Position numbers and translations under genes: made by a program | DNA from: Armatimonadota bacterium | Lineage (GTDB): Bacteria; Armatimonadota; HRBIN16 | Length of the DNA stretch: 64,000 bases | Direction: 5' to 3' | Assembly (NCBI GenBank): GCA_026003175.1 | Contig: BPGT01000001.1 | Span: 1,340,839 to 1,404,838 of the forward strand | The notes under the pieces: generated by a model | The model's database searches: none | Told to the model about the DNA's origin: nothing | The model's input: the letters and a program-made list of their open reading frames with translations, nothing else | Shown: positions 52,228 through 59,872 of the stretch, piece by piece | How the letters are laid out: the number at the start of each line of letters is the position of its first letter | Numbering within the stretch: position 1 is the first letter of the stretch

Positions 52228-54213
52228 ATGGCAACAACTATCTGGCAGAAGATACGCGCAGAAGCGGAAGTACGTGAAGAGGCGGTTCCTGCGCAACGCG
52301 GTGTGACCCTCCGCGCTGTGGTGGTTGGTATTATCCTCGCTCCTTTGATCGCCTGGTTCAATATCTCCATCGAAGCCATTCGTTATGCAGGACAGCCGAC
52401 TACTATCTCGCTGTTTCCGCACATCCTGTTTGTGCTTCTTTGTTTGATTGCGGTGAACGCAGTGGTTGGACGCATCGCGCCCCGATGGCGTTTCTCCCCC
52501 GCGGAATTGATGACCGTCTACTTCTTTACTCTGATGACCGCGGTGATGGCGTCACATGACCTGATTGAGGTCATCACGCCCATCCTTACTTATCCCTTCA
52601 AATACGCCAATCCCGCCAACCGCTGGGAGAGCGATGTCATCCCCTATCTACCAAAGTGGCTGTTTATCAGCGACCCCGGTGCGGTGGACAAGTACTATAT
52701 CGGCAACGCCAACTTCTGGAACGGGCACGACCTGCGCATCTGGACACCCCCTCTGCTCATCTGGACAGGTTTCTTTACCGTGCTGGCGTTCGGCATGTTC
52801 TGCCTGAACGTGCTGTTACGCAAACAGTGGACCGATCGTGAACGCCTCTCTTATCCTCTGGTGCAGCTGCCGTTAGAGCTGGTGCAACCGCGCGTGCCTG
52901 TGTTCCAGAATCGGCTGTTCTGGATTGCGTTCGCCATCGCCGCCATCAACGACATTTGGTTTGGCTTGAACCGGTTGTTTCCCTCCATCCCGCAGCCCTA
53001 CGTGCGCTGGCAGACGCTGGAGCAGTACATCACCACGCCACCATGGAACGCTATCGGCTGGCTGCCTCTGGCGTTTTTCCCCTGGATTGTGGGCATCGGA
53101 GTGCTGTTGCCCACCGACTTGCTCTTCTCTTGTTGGTTCTTCTTCTGGTTGTGGAAGCTGCAACCCATCATCGCCGCCTACTACGGCTGGAACCAGATAC
53201 CCGGCTTCCCGTACGTCAACGAGCAATCCTTTGGGGCATACATGGGCATTGCGCTCTTTACCCTCTACACCGCCAGAAAGGCACTGGCGCAGGGGTTCTC
53301 GGCGATATGGCGAGGTTCCGACGGTAGCGACAGAAGCGAGGCACTGCCCTACCGCTGGGCAGCGTTGGGGTTCTTAGCGAGCCTGGTGGCAATTTACCTC
53401 TTTTTCTTCTCTACCGGCATGAGCGGCTGGGTAATCGCGCTCTCCTTGCTCATCTATCTTGCCATCTCCCTGGCGGTCACGCGTATGCGAGCCGAGCTCG
53501 GTCCCCCCGCGCACGACCTGCACGATTCGGGACCGCAACGGCTCATCCCCCTGCTGTTCGGGGTGGAGAACCTGAAGCGACAGGACCTGGTGATGTTCGC
53601 ACCGATGCAGGGCTTTAACCGCGCCTATCGCGCCCATCCCATGCCCACGCACATCGAAGGACTGCGTGCAGCGGAGCGAACACGTTCCTCGATGCGGGCG
53701 ATGTTCTGGGTGCTGGTGTTCGCTGTGTTCTGGGGCACGCTCACCGGCTTCTTCGTGAACGTGCACCTGCACTACCAGTGGGGCGCAGCATCCAAAGCGG
53801 ATACCCCTTACGTCAGCACTATTTTCGGCAGAGAACCCTATGACCGCATTACCTCCCTGTTGGCTGGGTCGGTCTCCTCCCTGCAACAGCGTAACGTGAT
53901 ATGGGCAATGATGGTGGGCTTTGGGGTTACCGCGGTGCTGAGTATCTTCCGTATGAACATCGCCAACTTCCCCCTGCACCCGGTAGGCTACGCTATCTCC
54001 AGCAGCTGGAGCCTGAGCGTGCTGTGGTTTTCCCTGCTGGTGGCGTGGGCTTGCAAAGTCACCATCATGAAGATAGGCGGATTGCGCAGCTACCAGCGGG
54101 CGTTGCCTTTCTTCTTAGGGCTGGTGCTGGGCGAGTGCACGATGGGTAGCCTTTGGATGCTGGTGAGCATCTTCACTGGCACCAAAACATTCATCGTATG
54201 GCCGTATGGCTAA
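52228..54213 (+). CDS. Large multi-pass membrane protein (DUF6785-like)
   Basis: A 661-residue protein starting at the ATG at 52228 (MATTIWQKIRAEAEVREEA); a longer frame to 52126 runs through the palindromic leader. About twelve to fourteen hydrophobic segments are visible, including GIILAPLIAWFNISIEAI, FFTLMTAVMASHDLIEVITP and WIVGIGVLLPTDLLFSCWFF. Charged loops separate them (HDLHDSGPQRLIP, GFNRAYRAHPMPTHIEGL). I associate it with DUF6785/6784-type proteins of Armatimonadota and Lentisphaerota, function unknown. The 3' end overlaps the convergent DUF92 gene by 23 bases. Confidence 0.75.
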   Translation: MATTIWQKIRAEAEVREEAVPAQRGVTLRAVVVGIILAPLIAWFNISIEAIRYAGQPTTISLFPHILFVLLCLIAVNAVVGRIAPRWRFSPAELMTVYFFTLMTAVMASHDLIEVITPILTYPFKYANPANRWESDVIPYLPKWLFISDPGAVDKYYIGNANFWNGHDLRIWTPPLLIWTGFFTVLAFGMFCLNVLLRKQWTDRERLSYPLVQLPLELVQPRVPVFQNRLFWIAFAIAAINDIWFGLNRLFPSIPQPYVRWQTLEQYITTPPWNAIGWLPLAFFPWIVGIGVLLPTDLLFSCWFFFWLWKLQPIIAAYYGWNQIPGFPYVNEQSFGAYMGIALFTLYTARKALAQGFSAIWRGSDGSDRSEALPYRWAALGFLASLVAIYLFFFSTGMSGWVIALSLLIYLAISLAVTRMRAELGPPAHDLHDSGPQRLIPLLFGVENLKRQDLVMFAPMQGFNRAYRAHPMPTHIEGLRAAERTRSSMRAMFWVLVFAVFWGTLTGFFVNVHLHYQWGAASKADTPYVSTIFGREPYDRITSLLAGSVSSLQQRNVIWAMMVGFGVTAVLSIFRMNIANFPLHPVGYAISSSWSLSVLWFSLLVAWACKVTIMKIGGLRSYQRALPFFLGLVLGECTMGSLWMLVSIFTGTKTFIVWPYG

Positions 54214-54985
54214 GAAGCGTTATCAAAGCTCCCGCCAGCGTGCAAAGCAGGTTCACCATATCATTGTTTATCCACCGCCAGCCGCTGAGCTGTGTGGCGG
54301 CGAGCCCGCAGTGTTCCCTTTTTTCTACGACCTCGCCGCACCGCTTGCAACGATATCTTGCCTGCAGGGTGGCGCCCAGCAGGCTGTCCAGCAAATTGCC
54401 TGCCATCCCGCCCAGCGCGACCACCAGCGCCTGCGCTAGAGGCATGGGATGTACCAGCCACGCTATCCCGGCTATCACCACACTGCCTGCCCCTCCAGCC
54501 AGGAAGCCCAGCGAGGTAACCCCGCCCGAGTCGCCCGCTCGCAGTATACGCCCTGTCAGGATATGACGCGGCGGTGTGGTGGAAAGCGCACCGATTTCAC
54601 TGCTCCACGTATCGGCGTTAGCGGCAGTGTACGCCCCGACAAATGCCAGCCACCAGCATGCCTCACCGGTCAGAGTATACAACGCGATGCACAAGGACGC
54701 CACACCGCCATTGGCAAGCACCTGCGTTGCGCCGCGTTGCGAACCGCGTGCGGTTAGAAACTCCATGCGCTTTTTGTGTGCAGCACGCCATCGGCTGAGC
54801 ACACTGGAAGTTACGAAGAAGGTGAGCAAAACCGCTGTGCCTTGCCAACCGCCCCCGGCGAGAGTGACCCACCCCACCACAAACGCGGCGGCAGCCCCCG
54901 ACACCGATAGCCAGTGCAGACGAACGGCGCAAAGCACCACGAGCAACACGATTACGGCGGAGTAGATGGGGTTGGCAGCCCACAC
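54191..54985 (-). CDS. DUF92-family membrane protein
   Basis: A 264-residue integral membrane protein of the DUF92/TMEM19 family, related to plant VTE6 phytyl-phosphate kinase. About six hydrophobic segments, the conserved GGVTSLGFLAGGAGSVVI region with preceding ADTWSSEIGAL, and a zinc-like CKRCGEVVEKREHCG loop near residue 215-230 are visible. It ends the convergent pair with the large membrane protein. An exact prokaryotic function is not known to me. Confidence 0.87.
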   Translation of the reverse strand: MWAANPIYSAVIVLLVVLCAVRLHWLSVSGAAAAFVVGWVTLAGGGWQGTAVLLTFFVTSSVLSRWRAAHKKRMEFLTARGSQRGATQVLANGGVASLCIALYTLTGEACWWLAFVGAYTAANADTWSSEIGALSTTPPRHILTGRILRAGDSGGVTSLGFLAGGAGSVVIAGIAWLVHPMPLAQALVVALGGMAGNLLDSLLGATLQARYRCKRCGEVVEKREHCGLAATQLSGWRWINNDMVNLLCTLAGALITLLSHTAIR

Positions 54986-54993
54986 TGCTCATC

Positions 54994-55827
54994 CTAGCGG
55001 CGAATGCCGACCAGCGTGCGCAGGTATTTGGGGTCGGTAATGCGGTCTATTGCTACACGTCCACGGCTGCTGGCTGCATGGATGAAGTAGCCGTTGCCGA
55101 TGTAGATGCCCGTATGGGAGATGGGCTGTTTGCTAGAACGAAAGTACAGTCTGTCGCCCGGCTGCAGCATGGAAAGGTCCGGAATGGGCGTTCCTATCTG
55201 TGCCTGGTGTCTGCCTAAGCGGGGCAGCTTGATGCCGTTGAGCGCAAACACCTTCTGCACGAATCCCGAGCAATCCAACCCGCTGTAGGAAGTGCCTCCC
55301 CAGCGGTAAGGAATGCCCAGAAAGCGCAAAGCGGTCTGCACGATGCGTTCGCCCAGTGCGCCCATCGTTGCCGGGCTGGCAGACACCACCTCATAATCCA
55401 GCAGCCTCACGTGCTGACGGGGTACCCAACCCACACTACCGTCCGCCATCAGCACCCCGTACCATGCCCCCGCTTCGTGCGTGACGGCGAGATACGTCAA
55501 CGTTTCACAACGAGCGTACAACCTGCTGTGTGTACTGCGCATCGCATAGATGGGAGCAGGGTTGACAGTCACTCCTAACCGCCCGATAACCTGGTGGCGT
55601 TTGGGCTTCGTTCTGCTAGGTGGTGGACTATTGCTTTGCGACACAGGACGCGGCGGCTCCGGCGGACGGATGGGCAGTTCGATAGAGAGGGTAGTATCGG
55701 CACGAACGGTACCTACCACCCATAGAGCGAGCACCGCACCCAGTAGGCAGAGGGACAAACGCCTCTTTCCCCACCCTGTTTCCCTTAGGGAGGGGTTCGG
55801 AAGACAGGTATGATTCTTGAACCACAC
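54994..55827 (-). CDS. Secreted NlpC/P60 peptidoglycan hydrolase with SH3-like domain
   Basis: A 277-residue protein. The frame starts at a GTG (55827); an internal TTG near residue 25 is an alternative. A signal anchor (LLGAVLALWVVGTVRA) is followed by a Pro-rich linker, a bacterial SH3-like domain (about 80-145; SRLYARCETLTYLAVTHEAG, WVPRQHVRLL) and a NlpC/P60 domain with catalytic C186 (LDCSGFV), H238 (SHTGIYIG) and H250 (FIHAASS). It probably cleaves peptide stems of peptidoglycan. Confidence 0.9.
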   Translation of the reverse strand: MWFKNHTCLPNPSLRETGWGKRRLSLCLLGAVLALWVVGTVRADTTLSIELPIRPPEPPRPVSQSNSPPPSRTKPKRHQVIGRLGVTVNPAPIYAMRSTHSRLYARCETLTYLAVTHEAGAWYGVLMADGSVGWVPRQHVRLLDYEVVSASPATMGALGERIVQTALRFLGIPYRWGGTSYSGLDCSGFVQKVFALNGIKLPRLGRHQAQIGTPIPDLSMLQPGDRLYFRSSKQPISHTGIYIGNGYFIHAASSRGRVAIDRITDPKYLRTLVGIRR

Positions 55828-55867: not shown

Positions 55868-56530
55868 TTACTGCACCAGCCTTAGCCAGTCGCTAAAGAT
55901 AAAGTACATCCGGTCAAACAGCAGTGCCATGCGCGCCATAATGGTTGTTCCAAAAATCGCGCCAAATGCCACCATCATCACCCAACGCCCGAGCTGCGCC
56001 GAGTTGCGGATAGCCTTGCTCTTCTGCTCAAACGAGAAGAAGAAGTAGCTCATCACGGTGACGAGTACTATCATGAAGATGAGATTGTTCAGGCTCTTCG
56101 CGAACTCGAACGAACCGTCTGCCGCCACTACATACAGCGGTCGGAAGGAATCCGACAGCTGCGGCAGATAGGTGTTGGAGAAAATCTGGAAAATCTGTCC
56201 TGCCGAGAAGCCCATCAGGAAGCCTATCGGCAAGCGACTGAGCCAGTTGTGTTTTCGGCTGTGGATAAAGTAGAACAACAGACCAAACATGAACACGAAC
56301 GTCCAGTACCACTCACCCTTCTTAAACACCGGCTGGTACAGGAACGGGTCCAGAACATCCTTGATCAACACCACAATGGAGAACCCGGCGGCTAAGCCGA
56401 TAAAGATGTGCTCGAAGAAGCGATAAACAACGTTCTCACGGTAAATCAGGGTCATCAGTCCAATAGTACAAATCGCACCGACGTACACGCCGGGGCGCGC
56501 CAAAAAGTCTTGCCACACCTGTTCCATCAT
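55868..56530 (-). CDS. Membrane protein F of a six-gene operon
   Basis: A 220-residue protein with about six hydrophobic segments (GVYVGAICTIGLMTLIY, FFEHIFIGLAAGFSIVVLI, FVFMFGLLFYFIHS and a long LIFMIVLVTVMSYFFFS). One extracytoplasmic-looking segment carries YLPQLSDSFRPLYVVAADGS. It overlaps the preceding gene by 4 bases (ATGA) and ends the operon. No family is recognised. The coupling suggests it is a stoichiometric subunit of a complex with the other five. Confidence 0.7.
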   Translation of the reverse strand: MMEQVWQDFLARPGVYVGAICTIGLMTLIYRENVVYRFFEHIFIGLAAGFSIVVLIKDVLDPFLYQPVFKKGEWYWTFVFMFGLLFYFIHSRKHNWLSRLPIGFLMGFSAGQIFQIFSNTYLPQLSDSFRPLYVVAADGSFEFAKSLNNLIFMIVLVTVMSYFFFSFEQKSKAIRNSAQLGRWVMMVAFGAIFGTTIMARMALLFDRMYFIFSDWLRLVQ

Positions 56531-57369
56531 TGCGACCTCCGCGTTCGTGTTGCGAAGTAGCCGATGTTGCCTATCACGATGAGCACCATAATCAGCACGT
56601 GTGCCAGCGAGATGCTGCCCATGCCTACCGAAGCCAGCCCCGGTTTTCTAAGCAGGTTCTCATACTCGGCGGCTCCGCGCATACCTTCCATCGTGCCCAC
56701 AATCTGCCCGGAAGCCAGATAGGGGTACGTCTCGGGTACCATCACGGAGGTGGGGCAGAAACCAAACTTCAGCTTGGGGTTTGCACCCACCACCAGACCA
56801 ATCCAGTCGGCATAGATGCCGGAGGCAGCAATCTCCACAATCGCGTCCACATTCTGGATGTCCTTGATGCCCTGCATCACCGGCATGTCTTTAGTGGGCT
56901 TACCGTCGTAGTCCTTGTCGAAGGTACCGGGGATGTCGCGCACCATCGACTTCATCACTACGCCTATCTGCGGACGATAACCCCAGTGCACCCAGTTTTT
57001 GCCGTATTCGTAGCCATACTCAGCGGCAAGTTTTCGGGCGATGTTCAGCGACAACTGGCTTCCCTGCACGTCAAACGAGAACACCGCCACCCGCAATCCT
57101 CGCTGCATTGCATGGCGCAGGATAGCCACCGTCTGCGGCATGTTCTCCGCGCGAGTGCCTCCGCTCCATGTGGCGCTGATAATCACGAAGCCATTTGGGG
57201 GTATGGATTCTATAGCGTCGTACAACCTCTGAGTAGAAGGCATGGTGACCGTTGGCAGGCGTATAGGCAAAAACAGCGGCGCAATCACCACCGCCAGCAG
57301 CAGCAGATACAGTATCCGACGGTCTATTGCTTGCAGCTTTTCCCAGAGGTTTGCCGATGCACCAGTCAT
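56527..57369 (-). CDS. Membrane-anchored Rossmann-like protein E of a six-gene operon
   Basis: A 280-residue protein with one hydrophobic helix at each end (LYLLLLAVVIAPLFLPIRLP and LAHVLIMVLIVIGNIGYFAT). Between them is a large domain of alternating strands and helices: GFVIISATWSGGTRAENMPQ, LRVAVFSFDVQGSQLSLNIA, GYEYGKNWVHWGYRPQIGVV and ADWIGLVVGANPKLKFGF. The pattern suggests a Rossmann-like or receiver-like fold, with a conserved D/N-rich loop (TFDKDYDGKPTKDMPVM). An AAAAGGAGATTTAGACG site gives the start. Function unknown; no catalytic motif is recognised. Confidence 0.65.
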   Translation of the reverse strand: MTGASANLWEKLQAIDRRILYLLLLAVVIAPLFLPIRLPTVTMPSTQRLYDAIESIPPNGFVIISATWSGGTRAENMPQTVAILRHAMQRGLRVAVFSFDVQGSQLSLNIARKLAAEYGYEYGKNWVHWGYRPQIGVVMKSMVRDIPGTFDKDYDGKPTKDMPVMQGIKDIQNVDAIVEIAASGIYADWIGLVVGANPKLKFGFCPTSVMVPETYPYLASGQIVGTMEGMRGAAEYENLLRKPGLASVGMGSISLAHVLIMVLIVIGNIGYFATRTRRSQ

Positions 57370-57372
57370 CGT

Positions 57373-58185
57373 CTAAATCTCCTTTTCGAAGTAAGCGCCT
57401 CGCTCAAGGCTGAGCCAGATACGTAGCGAGATGGCAAGCCCTCCTACACCCAGACCGAAAGCAATCGCACGCAGCGACGCCGCGTTTAACACAGTGAGCA
57501 GCCACTCTTTTATCACTTCCAGACGCAGCGATGCCAGCGCGCTATCGCGGGGAATCCAGGCGGTCAACGCTAAGCCTACAGGCACCTGCGCCAGCATCAC
57601 CAAAAACGCCGCCGCCATCAGGATAGTGGCTTCGATAGAGCGAATACGGAAGGCACGGTAAGCCGCCGAGACAATATAAAAAGCGATCAGCGAAAACATC
57701 GTGGCGTCCATGTTAATCAACATGCCCTCGAACAGCACGTTGAACACCTTTTTGGCGGTGGAATTGGTCCCGTATTTCTCCATCAAGCCGAATACCACCA
57801 TCGCCACCATCGCGGTGAGCAGAGCCAGGCTGTTGTACCATCCCGCCCGCAACCGCACGATATTGCGCCCATGCACCCTCAGCAGACTGAGGATGCCCAG
57901 CGTCAGGGTCATACCGCCCAGCAGACTGCCCAGCTTGCTGGCAGGAACCAGATAATCGGTGAGGATGTTCTTCTGGGTGGCTTTGTCGAACGGCAGGAAG
58001 AACTCCGTGGCGTAAAACAGCCCTGCGAGGAAGGTGACGATAGCGATAAGTGGCTTGCGTGCCCGGGAAGGCAGGTTAATCAGCAGGATGACCACAAGAA
58101 TGCTAAACACCACCGCTCCCGCTACGTAATACGGCAGTACTGCTGGCGGTTGGGGACTAAAAAAGCGAACTATCGGCTCTAACAC
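57373..58185 (-). CDS. Multi-pass membrane protein D of a six-gene operon
   Basis: A 270-residue protein. I prefer the GTG at 58185, eight bases after GGGGGTAAAC and 17 bases past the upstream stop, to the GTG at 58233 that overlaps the previous gene by 31 bases. About seven hydrophobic segments (VVFSILVVILLINLPSR, LIAIVTFLAGLFYATEFFL, ALLTAMVAMVVFGLMEKYG and others) are visible. No family is recognised. Three bases separate its stop from the next start. Confidence 0.65.
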   Translation of the reverse strand: MLEPIVRFFSPQPPAVLPYYVAGAVVFSILVVILLINLPSRARKPLIAIVTFLAGLFYATEFFLPFDKATQKNILTDYLVPASKLGSLLGGMTLTLGILSLLRVHGRNIVRLRAGWYNSLALLTAMVAMVVFGLMEKYGTNSTAKKVFNVLFEGMLINMDATMFSLIAFYIVSAAYRAFRIRSIEATILMAAAFLVMLAQVPVGLALTAWIPRDSALASLRLEVIKEWLLTVLNAASLRAIAFGLGVGGLAISLRIWLSLERGAYFEKEI

Positions 58186-58202
58186 CGTCCGTTTACCCCC
58201 TG

Positions 58203-59006
58203 TTAACGAATGGTAAATAGTTCTATGAACCACTTGCCTCCATCTGCCAGAATCGGCACCTTGAGCGCGGCAACCGTTGAAGCGATGGATCCCACGACGA
58301 ACAGTGCGGTAATCAACAGCTTCCCAAAATCCTGCCCCACCAGACTACCGAGCATCGTCGGGTTGCGCGAGATGTATGCGCTGGCAGCGTAGTACTCGTC
58401 GCCAATGATAGTGTAGTCGCACGCGGCGATGAAGAACGGAATCTGCGTCGTTTGTGTGGTTCCGGCAACCTGTATCGCCCCTGTCATATTACCCGTCTCA
58501 GCGAAGATAAGCGATTCGGCGAAGAACTCGCCAAACATGAAAGAACTGGCGATCTTCTCGCGCTGAATCAAGCCCGCCACGCCGGAGGCGAAGGCAAACT
58601 GACGGTCGGACAGGAAGCGGATAGAATCGGGGTCAAAGCGTTCAGGATGCCCTTCTGCCTGATAGGCATCGCGAATGACCTCTTCGGCTACAGTGTATAC
58701 GGTTGGGTCTGCGACCGGCATCAGGATACGGTTGCCGAATTTGGCGGTGGACCGCGCAATATAACTGAAGATGCTTAACGCCTGCAGAGCAATAATGCCG
58801 AAACCGCCAATGCCAGGCACCATCAGCACCGGACGCCCCATTTCGGTGGCCCGCCCTATCGCTTCGTCGATAGCATTCAAACCCGGGATGCGCCGAATGA
58901 ACAGCTCCTTGCCCCGCTGGGCGGAGATAATTCGCCAGATAATGATAAGCGCTGGCAGTACTTCCACAATCAACACGGGCCAGGGTTTCTCAAAGGCGTG
59001 TTGCAT
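58203..59006 (-). CDS. DUF6754-like membrane protein C of a six-gene operon
   Basis: A 267-residue protein with hydrophobic segments at about 10-28, 60-85 and 235-250. The central region (RILMPVADPTVYTVAEEVIR, then SDRQFAFASGVAGLIQREKI, and FGEFFAESLIFAETGNMTGA) and the IPFFIAACDYTIIGDEYYAA motif match what I recall as DUF6754 proteins. GGAGCCATCTGGTC precedes the ATG. It overlaps the upstream gene by 17 bases. Biochemical role unknown. Confidence 0.65.
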   Translation of the reverse strand: MQHAFEKPWPVLIVEVLPALIIIWRIISAQRGKELFIRRIPGLNAIDEAIGRATEMGRPVLMVPGIGGFGIIALQALSIFSYIARSTAKFGNRILMPVADPTVYTVAEEVIRDAYQAEGHPERFDPDSIRFLSDRQFAFASGVAGLIQREKIASSFMFGEFFAESLIFAETGNMTGAIQVAGTTQTTQIPFFIAACDYTIIGDEYYAASAYISRNPTMLGSLVGQDFGKLLITALFVVGSIASTVAALKVPILADGGKWFIELFTIR

Positions 59007-59310
59007 GACCAGATGGCTCCTGTCCTTTTTCGTATTCTAACTGTTCAATGCGCTCGATCAGCCTCTCTACGTTCTCCCGCTTCTCCAGCAACCGGCTGTA
59101 ACGATGTACGTTCTCTATTCCCACAAAAGGCGCAAGGAACGGTGTGAGCACAATCAGTGACTGGCTGGCGACAAACGACAGGGGCTTATTCAGTTCCAGA
59201 AACAGCACCGCCGGCGCCGCCATGCCGCGGCGCACAACCCCCTGCGCAATGCGCTCCAGAATGGCGTCGCGCTCCTCATCGCTCAGTTCATCTTCTTGCC
59301 AGCGGTCCAT
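58990..59310 (-). CDS. Small acidic protein B of a six-gene operon
   Basis: A 106-residue protein starting at the ATG at 59310 within the 3' end of the first gene (28-base overlap); a TTG nine bases upstream is an alternative. The N-terminal part is acidic (DELSDEERDAILERIAQGVV), a hydrophobic middle reads APAVLFLELNKPLSFVASQS then LIVLTPFLAPFVG, and a C-terminal helix is highly charged (SRLLEKRENVERLIERIEQL). It may be a peripheral membrane adaptor. No family is recognised with confidence. Confidence 0.6.
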   Translation of the reverse strand: MDRWQEDELSDEERDAILERIAQGVVRRGMAAPAVLFLELNKPLSFVASQSLIVLTPFLAPFVGIENVHRYSRLLEKRENVERLIERIEQLEYEKGQEPSGHATRL

Positions 59311-59729
59311 TCTCTCCAAAAGGCGATCGCCTCCAGCACCTGTTCTCGATTACCTGCAAAGCGCAAATAGACCCCCCGGAATGGCTGCAGGCGCGAACGA
59401 GGGGGCACTGGACTGAGTTTAACCCCACTATCGTTGACTATGACGTACTTCGCTCTCTCCCACGTGATGTCGTACATCGCGCCCAGATAACGTGCCCCTG
59501 CACCTCTCTCACCTATATAGTAACACACAGGGAGCCAGTAGTCGCGCGTTGCCAGCCACAACAGGATGAATGCCAGCAAGCCCATTCCTGCGCTACGAAA
59601 AGCCACACCCACCACTACCGCAGCCAGCAGCATAATCGCACCCGCCTGCCACGCCTGCTGCGGTTGCTCGCGTAGTAGGTGTACCGTCCACTGCAAGGTA
59701 TGCTTGTTTGCCAACCCCTCCTCATCCAT
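59283..59729 (-). CDS. Membrane protein A, first gene of a six-gene operon
   Basis: A 148-residue protein starting at the ATG at 59729 (MDEEGLANKHTLQW). Longer starts lie inside the promoter and are excluded by it. Two hydrophobic segments (GAIMLLAAVVVGVAFRSAG, MGLLAFILLWLATRDYWLP) are followed by a soluble C-terminal domain with VKLSPVPPRSRLQPFRGVYL and NREQVLEAIAFWREW, which looks like a bacterial PH-type domain. No firm family is assigned. Confidence 0.65.
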   Translation of the reverse strand: MDEEGLANKHTLQWTVHLLREQPQQAWQAGAIMLLAAVVVGVAFRSAGMGLLAFILLWLATRDYWLPVCYYIGERGAGARYLGAMYDITWERAKYVIVNDSGVKLSPVPPRSRLQPFRGVYLRFAGNREQVLEAIAFWREWTAGKKMN

Positions 59730-59751
59730 GCGCGGGCAACAGCCCTGCGTC

Positions 59752-59780
59752 ATTATAAGCAGTAGCCCTCCCTGTGTCAA
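59752..59780 (-). promoter_or_regulatory. Consensus sigma-70-type promoter of the six-gene operon
   Basis: TTGACA (59780-59775), a 17-base spacer and TATAAT (59757-59752) on the minus strand. Both hexamers match consensus and the spacing is ideal. It fixes the first start codon at 59729 with a leader of roughly 16 bases and no clear Shine-Dalgarno. Confidence 0.75.
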
Positions 59781-59822: not shown

Positions 59823-59854
59823 CAAAAAGAGGGTCGCGCTCCGCGCGACCCTCT
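59823..59854 (-). terminator. Rho-independent terminator of the PEP-CTERM gene
   Basis: A 12-bp stem (AGAGGGTCGCGC with GCGCGACCCTCT, loop TCC) is followed on the minus strand by TTTT, 19 bases past the stop of the PEP-CTERM gene. A textbook intrinsic terminator. Confidence 0.85.
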
Positions 59855-59872
59855 CGCCGGAAACATCTATGC

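Follow-up and report, generated by a model that had tools for sequence, protein, structure and literature searches.

A 64,000-nt stretch of the genome of an Armatimonadota bacterium (GCA_026003175.1, contig BPGT01000001.1, positions 1,340,839 to 1,404,838; the window) carries six closely packed minus-strand genes, designated F, E, D, C, B, and A, which form a real operon for a predicted, so far uncharacterised inner-membrane protein complex. The six genes are not the whole system, as a MutL-type ATPase (MutL) and a barrel-sandwich/KOW-like protein (KLP) belong to it and are merely unlinked from the operon in this genome. We propose, with a probability of about one half, that the genes belong to a widespread envelope complex, in which the membrane part D-C-B-A is worked by a shared MutL-KLP-E ATPase unit and of which the output is transport or energisation. 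The data behind this proposal are gene order, co-occurrence, copy number, MutL-KLP fusion, the ATP motifs of MutL, and the predicted folds of D and B; from them we infer the physical complex, its topology, and the ATP coupling, and the transport itself, its direction, and its cargo are guesses.

All six open reading frames (ORFs) were present on the minus strand in the order F-E-D-C-B-A. With the likeliest start codons, F/E and E/D overlapped by 28 and 17 bases, D/C and C/B were separated by gaps of 17 and 3 bases, and B/A overlapped by 4 bases (ATGA), in agreement with the overlaps of 4–28 and gaps of 3–17 bases reported in a preliminary description of this DNA. The perfect TTGACA-17-TATAAT promoter reported there (59752..59780, minus strand) was the sole exact match in the window and appeared in none of 100 dinucleotide-preserving shuffles. 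Moreover, both boxes and their spacing were identical in two congeners (loci L065 and L071), whose spacer and flanks differ. Position 59780 is the −35 box and not a start codon; the F start is best placed at the ATG at 59729, but this placement is uncertain, as an in-frame ATG is missing at this site in congener L071.

D was identified as a member of DUF6754 (PF20539) with an E-value of 1.2e-95 and 320 bits vs. a 27-bit cut-off over residues 8–247, as the preliminary description had suspected. A scan of named bacterial genomes returned at least 578 relatives, and the best 80 of them were used for the phylum listing; outside Armatimonadota, presence and absence refer to the genomes found through DUF6754. 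DUF6754 was contained in 53 of 61 Armatimonadota genomes. Besides Armatimonadota, the best 80 of the at least 578 relatives included Nitrospirota, Planctomycetota (Scalindua and Anammoxibacter), Gemmatimonadota, Methylomirabilota, Poribacteria, Latescibacterota, WOR-3, Stahlbacteria, Zixibacteria, Edwardsbacteria, Fermentibacteria, and others. With 16 labelled groups in the D tree, the complex is found in at least 16 bacterial phyla. Chloroflexota were not among these 80 relatives, and no search was aimed at them.

The order D-C-B-A was retained at 37 of 43 DUF6754 genes in Armatimonadota loci and at 78 of 91 in other phyla, and nearly every departure from it corresponded to a contig end, a split frame, or a tandem copy of D or B. 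Separate occurrence of the genes, which the preliminary description had named as evidence against a complex, was looked for and not found for D-C-B-A. DUF6754 identity between phyla was about 40–65%, and the D tree was mostly phylum-coherent, with the window D placed in an Armatimonadota clade (support 100/100). An N-terminal Fn3-like extension was carried by 82 of 91 D ORFs from other phyla vs. 5 of 43 from Armatimonadota, and the window D is the short form without it. The coherent tree, together with this split of the extension between Armatimonadota and other phyla, argues for a system that is old and mostly vertically inherited.

Outside the lineage of the window, the usual order was E-MutL-KLP-D-C-B-A, with MutL and KLP located between E and D. 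E-MutL-KLP was found directly upstream of D-C-B-A in Nitrospirota, Planctomycetota, Gemmatimonadota, Methylomirabilota, some Latescibacterota, and some Armatimonadota. The MutL partner belongs to the GlmL-type ATPases (PF13941) of the ASKHA (actin/Hsp70/hexokinase) superfamily and matched the full-length profile (E-value 4e-132, 441.7 bits, profile 1–450). The ASKHA phosphate-1 and phosphate-2 motifs were intact in 39 of 41 and 41 of 41 MutL sequences, and read DCGSTTTK and DIGGATTDV in the MutL of the window's own genome (G000). MutL was present in all 21 sampled genomes of other phyla that have DUF6754, and DUF6754, MutL, and KLP were all absent from the same five Armatimonadota genomes of at least three families (Fisher p 5e-5, the genomes being not independent). 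Further, MutL-KLP fusion proteins of about 920–970 residues were found in Fermentibacteria/Aegiribacteria (L172 17375–20191; G066:C105; G071:C13 and C17), and based on these fusions MutL and KLP probably act together. Some of the fusion genes were located near DUF6754 modules.

Copy numbers were then compared. Of 22 genomes examined, 21 had a single E, and KLP was single in most genomes, while DUF6754 ranged from 1 to 6 copies per genome. In one complete WOR-3 chromosome, 6 DUF6754 were accompanied by one MutL, one KLP, and one E, and DUF6754 to MutL was 3:1 in several further genomes; a few genomes had a second MutL or a fused MutL-KLP form. D-C-B-A also occurred as tandem doublets and triplets. 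Since E, KLP, and MutL were mostly single vs. 1–6 DUF6754 modules, the pattern would correspond to one energising unit shared by several membrane modules. E, which is single copy and adjoins MutL in other phyla, is on gene order and copy number assigned to the ATPase set, and D-C-B-A is taken as the repeated membrane module. The six-gene complex of the preliminary description therefore stands as a conserved, tightly coupled membrane set without assigned function, but was incomplete in that the MutL-type ATPase and KLP belong to it too. Likewise, of the six genes as one unit, D-C-B-A stay together, but E groups with the ATPase set elsewhere, F is not universal, and the transcript is probably longer.

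In the window and most Armatimonadota, the order is F-E-D-C-B-A or E-D-C-B-A and MutL/KLP do not adjoin, which would fit a self-contained operon, with the co-occurrence of MutL and KLP due only to shared ancestry of the phyla. However, the adjacency of E-MutL-KLP-D-C-B-A in many phyla disfavours this explanation by synteny, and the joint loss in several families and the position of E beside MutL in other phyla are likewise against it, so that we consider it quite improbable.

A chaperone or reactivase role has been proposed for GlmL and the diol-dehydratase reactivases. Similarly, MutL could assemble, repair, or remodel D-C-B-A or a partner enzyme bound to the Rossmann domain of D, and D-C-B-A would then be an envelope-biogenesis or sensory scaffold. 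PF13941 is named after the glutamate-mutase accessory proteins, and one MutL copy for many modules fits such a role too. However, no B12-dependent mutase or dehydratase was found among the recurrent neighbours of MutL or D across phyla, which were E, KLP, and D, and the existence of a dedicated E-MutL-KLP unit, like the strong conservation of the D domain, points to a partnership that is constitutive. Compared with the GlmL/MutL proteins accessory to coenzyme-B12 glutamate mutase, the MutL here is a full-length family member, but it extends by about 100 residues past the C-terminal end of the Pfam domain and is accompanied by E, KLP, and DUF6754 instead of glutamate mutase subunits. The chaperone or reactivase role is regarded as the main rival to a shared energising unit, and as rather unlikely.

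D (58203..59006, minus strand; 267 residues) consists of a transmembrane helix (residues 8–30), a soluble domain (41–214) that is Rossmann-like in the AlphaFold model (predicted local distance difference test score, pLDDT, 92.2), and a long C-terminal transmembrane helix (216–247). Its conserved polar residues are E170, Q179, Q188, C196, D197, and E204. B (56527..57369, minus strand; 280 residues) likewise holds a Rossmann-like domain between an N-terminal and a C-terminal transmembrane anchor (pLDDT 94.0), which bears out the two-anchor protein with an exposed Rossmann-like domain described previously. Based on the positive-inside rule, the D domain is predicted to be cytoplasmic, because positive residues follow the first transmembrane helix and because a leader and an Fn3-like domain (PF00041, E-value 4.5e-05, just under the cut-off) precede this helix in long homologues, and the B domain is predicted to be extracytoplasmic, because both termini carry positive charge. 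C (57373..58185, minus strand; 270 residues; alignment A6) is a polytopic membrane protein with a predicted 6–7 spans, and A (55868..56530, minus strand; 220 residues; alignment A7) is polytopic as well; a simple hydropathy scan gave 6 segments in C and only 3 clear ones in A, compared with the seven and six spans of the preliminary description. The A family has an invariant E40 and a YFFF / FGxxFGxTxMxR block. E (58990..59310, minus strand; alignment A9) is a 106-residue acidic adaptor with a hydrophobic core, and F (59283..59729, minus strand; 148 residues from the uncertain start) has a hydrophobic hairpin and a small soluble domain and represents a conserved family upstream of E in Armatimonadota and several other phyla.

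None of A, B, C, E, and F of the window, F being the putative PH-like protein of the preliminary description, matched a Pfam family above threshold, and no consistent Pfam match was obtained for A, B, and C when many homologues were scanned. HemJ (E-value 0.005), Anthrone_oxy, and CbiA matched single members and were dropped, as these matches were not repeated across families. No usable match came from PDB sequence searches in which D, KLP, B, and MutL were the queries, and profile comparison showed no homology between D and B or between C and A. As to structural matches, D aligned with Sir2 (1ma3; Z 11.0, root-mean-square deviation 3.7, 142 aligned residues) and the epsilon subunit of carbon monoxide dehydrogenase (CODH; 9c0r; Z 9.8, 3.1, 136), and B with CODH epsilon (9c0q; Z 9.7, 3.1, 143); the scores of D and B with this DHS-like NAD/FAD-binding fold (Sir2, transhydrogenase dIII, and CODH epsilon) were tied by many other Rossmann folds. 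The statement that no protein has a recognised enzymatic motif held within A–F.

In the mechanism that we propose, D-C-B-A from the operon would form the membrane part, E would be one adaptor within the ATPase unit, and F would be an accessory membrane protein. MutL, KLP, and E would make up a cytoplasmic unit that serves a single D-C-B-A module or several of them. Together with KLP and E, MutL would bind and hydrolyse ATP and act on the cytoplasmic Rossmann domain of D, and the change would be relayed through the polytopic C and A to the B domain outside. The likeliest output, which is a guess, would be transport of a solute or envelope component, or energising of an outer-membrane process. 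Envelope transport or energisation is favoured because genes for TonB/ExbBD or a TonB-dependent receptor adjoin in several phyla.

In detail, WOR-3/Stahlbacteria loci carried D-C-B-A followed by DUF4388, ExbB, ExbD, TonB, and a TonB-dependent receptor. In L138, the ExbB, ExbD, and TonB genes were assigned from Pfam matches; in L140 and L168, they were recognised from their sequences. A CarboxypepD_reg+Plug receptor was located directly behind A in L130 and L161 (Pfam), and in 4 of 21 genomes, vs. 0.31 expected, DUF6754 was followed within 6 kb by a same-strand gene for a TonB-dependent receptor. D-C-B-A could specifically provide the inner-membrane components of a route for outer-membrane transport or surface secretion, either TonB-dependent or PorV-like, and might for instance replace the ATP-binding cassette (ABC) importer behind a TonB-dependent receptor. 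The direct succession of these genes in WOR-3/Stahlbacteria, and their presence in four to five genomes overall, above chance, speak for such a route, as do PorV-like proteins (identified by eye) beside the modules in L189 and L190. However, most lineages, that of the window included, have no such neighbour, and the planctomycete G062 has the full E-MutL-KLP-D-C-B-A set with no Plug domain detected. As the specific role of D-C-B-A, such an outer-membrane route is judged to be distinctly unlikely.

Two side observations were made at these loci. Two small membrane proteins (133 and 122 residues) without Pfam match are encoded between D-C-B-A and ExbB in L138 (14891–15647), L140, and L168 of WOR-3/Stahlbacteria. 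In the WOR-3 chromosome G068, large secreted-protein genes stand with the PorV-like genes beside the D-C-B-A modules (L189 and L190), and a link to surface secretion is possible there.

KLP and the Rossmann domains on both sides of the membrane were also considered in terms of an Rnf/Nqr-like redox complex, in which KLP would be RnfC/NqrA-like and C/A would handle quinone or ions. The N-terminus of KLP is barrel-sandwich-like, as in Rnf/Nqr, and one related KLP matched RnfC_N weakly (E-value 0.031, 14.7 bits, below the cut-off of 25.6). However, the own KLP lacks cysteine altogether, CxxC, heme, and carrier-lysine motifs were absent from A–F and KLP, none of A–F has more than one cysteine, genes for flavin or Fe-S partners were not seen to recur in the neighbourhood, and the PDB sequence search gave no match to NqrA or RnfC. 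Such a redox complex is considered highly improbable. A lipoyl/biotin-carrier role for KLP was dropped, as the carrier-lysine motif is absent. The own KLP gene (L193, G000:C1:555374–562280, minus strand) lies downstream of PrkA-, DUF444-, and possibly SpoVR-like genes (by eye) and upstream of a two-component system.

Several observations weigh against the proposed shared ATPase unit. In the window's own genome, neither MutL (G000:C7:51695) nor KLP (G000:C1:555380) is linked to the operon, and the two are not linked to one another either. G030, G059, and the 61%-complete bin G055 have MutL and KLP with DUF6754 not detected, perhaps due to incomplete assemblies. By Foldseek and VIA-align, D and B were generic Rossmann-like proteins, for which a functional relative was not found among solved folds. 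Finally, the TonB association is a post hoc observation that concerns a minority of lineages, and none of the Armatimonadota or Nitrospirota loci that were read showed TonB neighbours.

The organisation of the proposed complex is analogous to that of group-II energy-coupling factor (ECF) transporters and ABC importers with a shared ATPase, in that one energising unit would serve several membrane modules, here up to 6; the analogy is one of organisation and not of membership. In contrast to them, the ATPase here is of the ASKHA type, A–F, MutL, and KLP all lack Walker A and the ABC signature, and the repeated element comprises all four membrane genes rather than a substrate-binding subunit alone. 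Rnf/Nqr and TonB-ExbBD are multi-subunit inner-membrane machines, as the present system is predicted to be, and TonB-ExbBD is its genetic neighbour in some phyla only. However, A and C match neither MotA_ExbB nor any Rnf/Nqr Pfam family, and MotA_ExbB, ExbD, and TonB_C domains were not present in A–F. It is possible, and we say so tentatively, that the system represents an undescribed class of primary active membrane machine, in which an ATPase of the ASKHA type (actin/Hsp70 fold) would take the place of the ABC, P-type, or rotary ones in driving transport or energising the envelope, with one unit for up to six modules in at least 16 phyla. The system would then be new in kind, the word machine being chosen from genomes only.

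The complex spans Nitrospira, anammox planctomycetes, Gemmatimonadota, Armatimonadota, and many candidate phyla, and most of its components lie outside Pfam, with the remainder in families without settled function. DUF6754 itself is a Pfam family without assigned function, of which no mention was found in the open-access literature, and nothing relevant was found there on MutL/GlmL links. The link to a single ATPase provides a concrete hypothesis and an experimental target in culturable hosts, and offers context for MutL-type ATPases, which are usually explained only by their position beside glutamate mutase.

Upstream of the operon, an intrinsic-terminator-like hairpin (59827..59855, minus strand; 13-pair stem with 9 G-C, then a T-rich tail) closes the PEP-CTERM gene and sets the operon apart from it. 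Downstream, an NlpC/P60 peptidoglycan hydrolase gene (54994..55827, minus strand; PF00877, E-value 2e-25) begins 40 bp behind A, and a gene for a DUF92 integral membrane protein (54191..54985, minus strand; PF01940, E-value 1.3e-69) follows 8 bp behind it; both are the same neighbours in congeners L065 and L071. Because no terminator-like site was found just behind A and these genes run in the same direction, in the congeners too, the transcript probably comprises more than six genes, and the NlpC/P60 and DUF92 genes are probably co-transcribed with the six genes in the genus, a linkage at genus level only.

A second DUF6754 set is present in the own genome (L032 363–8045, G000:C4), with diverged D2-C2 and B2-A2, without E, and with about 5 kb of Ig-like/secreted-protein genes and repeats between C2 and B2; in congeners L067 and L070, the four genes of this set are contiguous. 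D alone was tandemly duplicated in L043 and L045, and B alone in L035, L183, and L122, which suggests heteromeric versions of the membrane module. Shikimate genes in Poribacteria and a MEMO-like gene in Nitrospirota were not accepted as partners, being lineage-specific. The latter, a MEMO1-like gene (named by eye), follows A in 21 Nitrospirota loci (for example, L116 and L160), about 3.7 kb after the D start.

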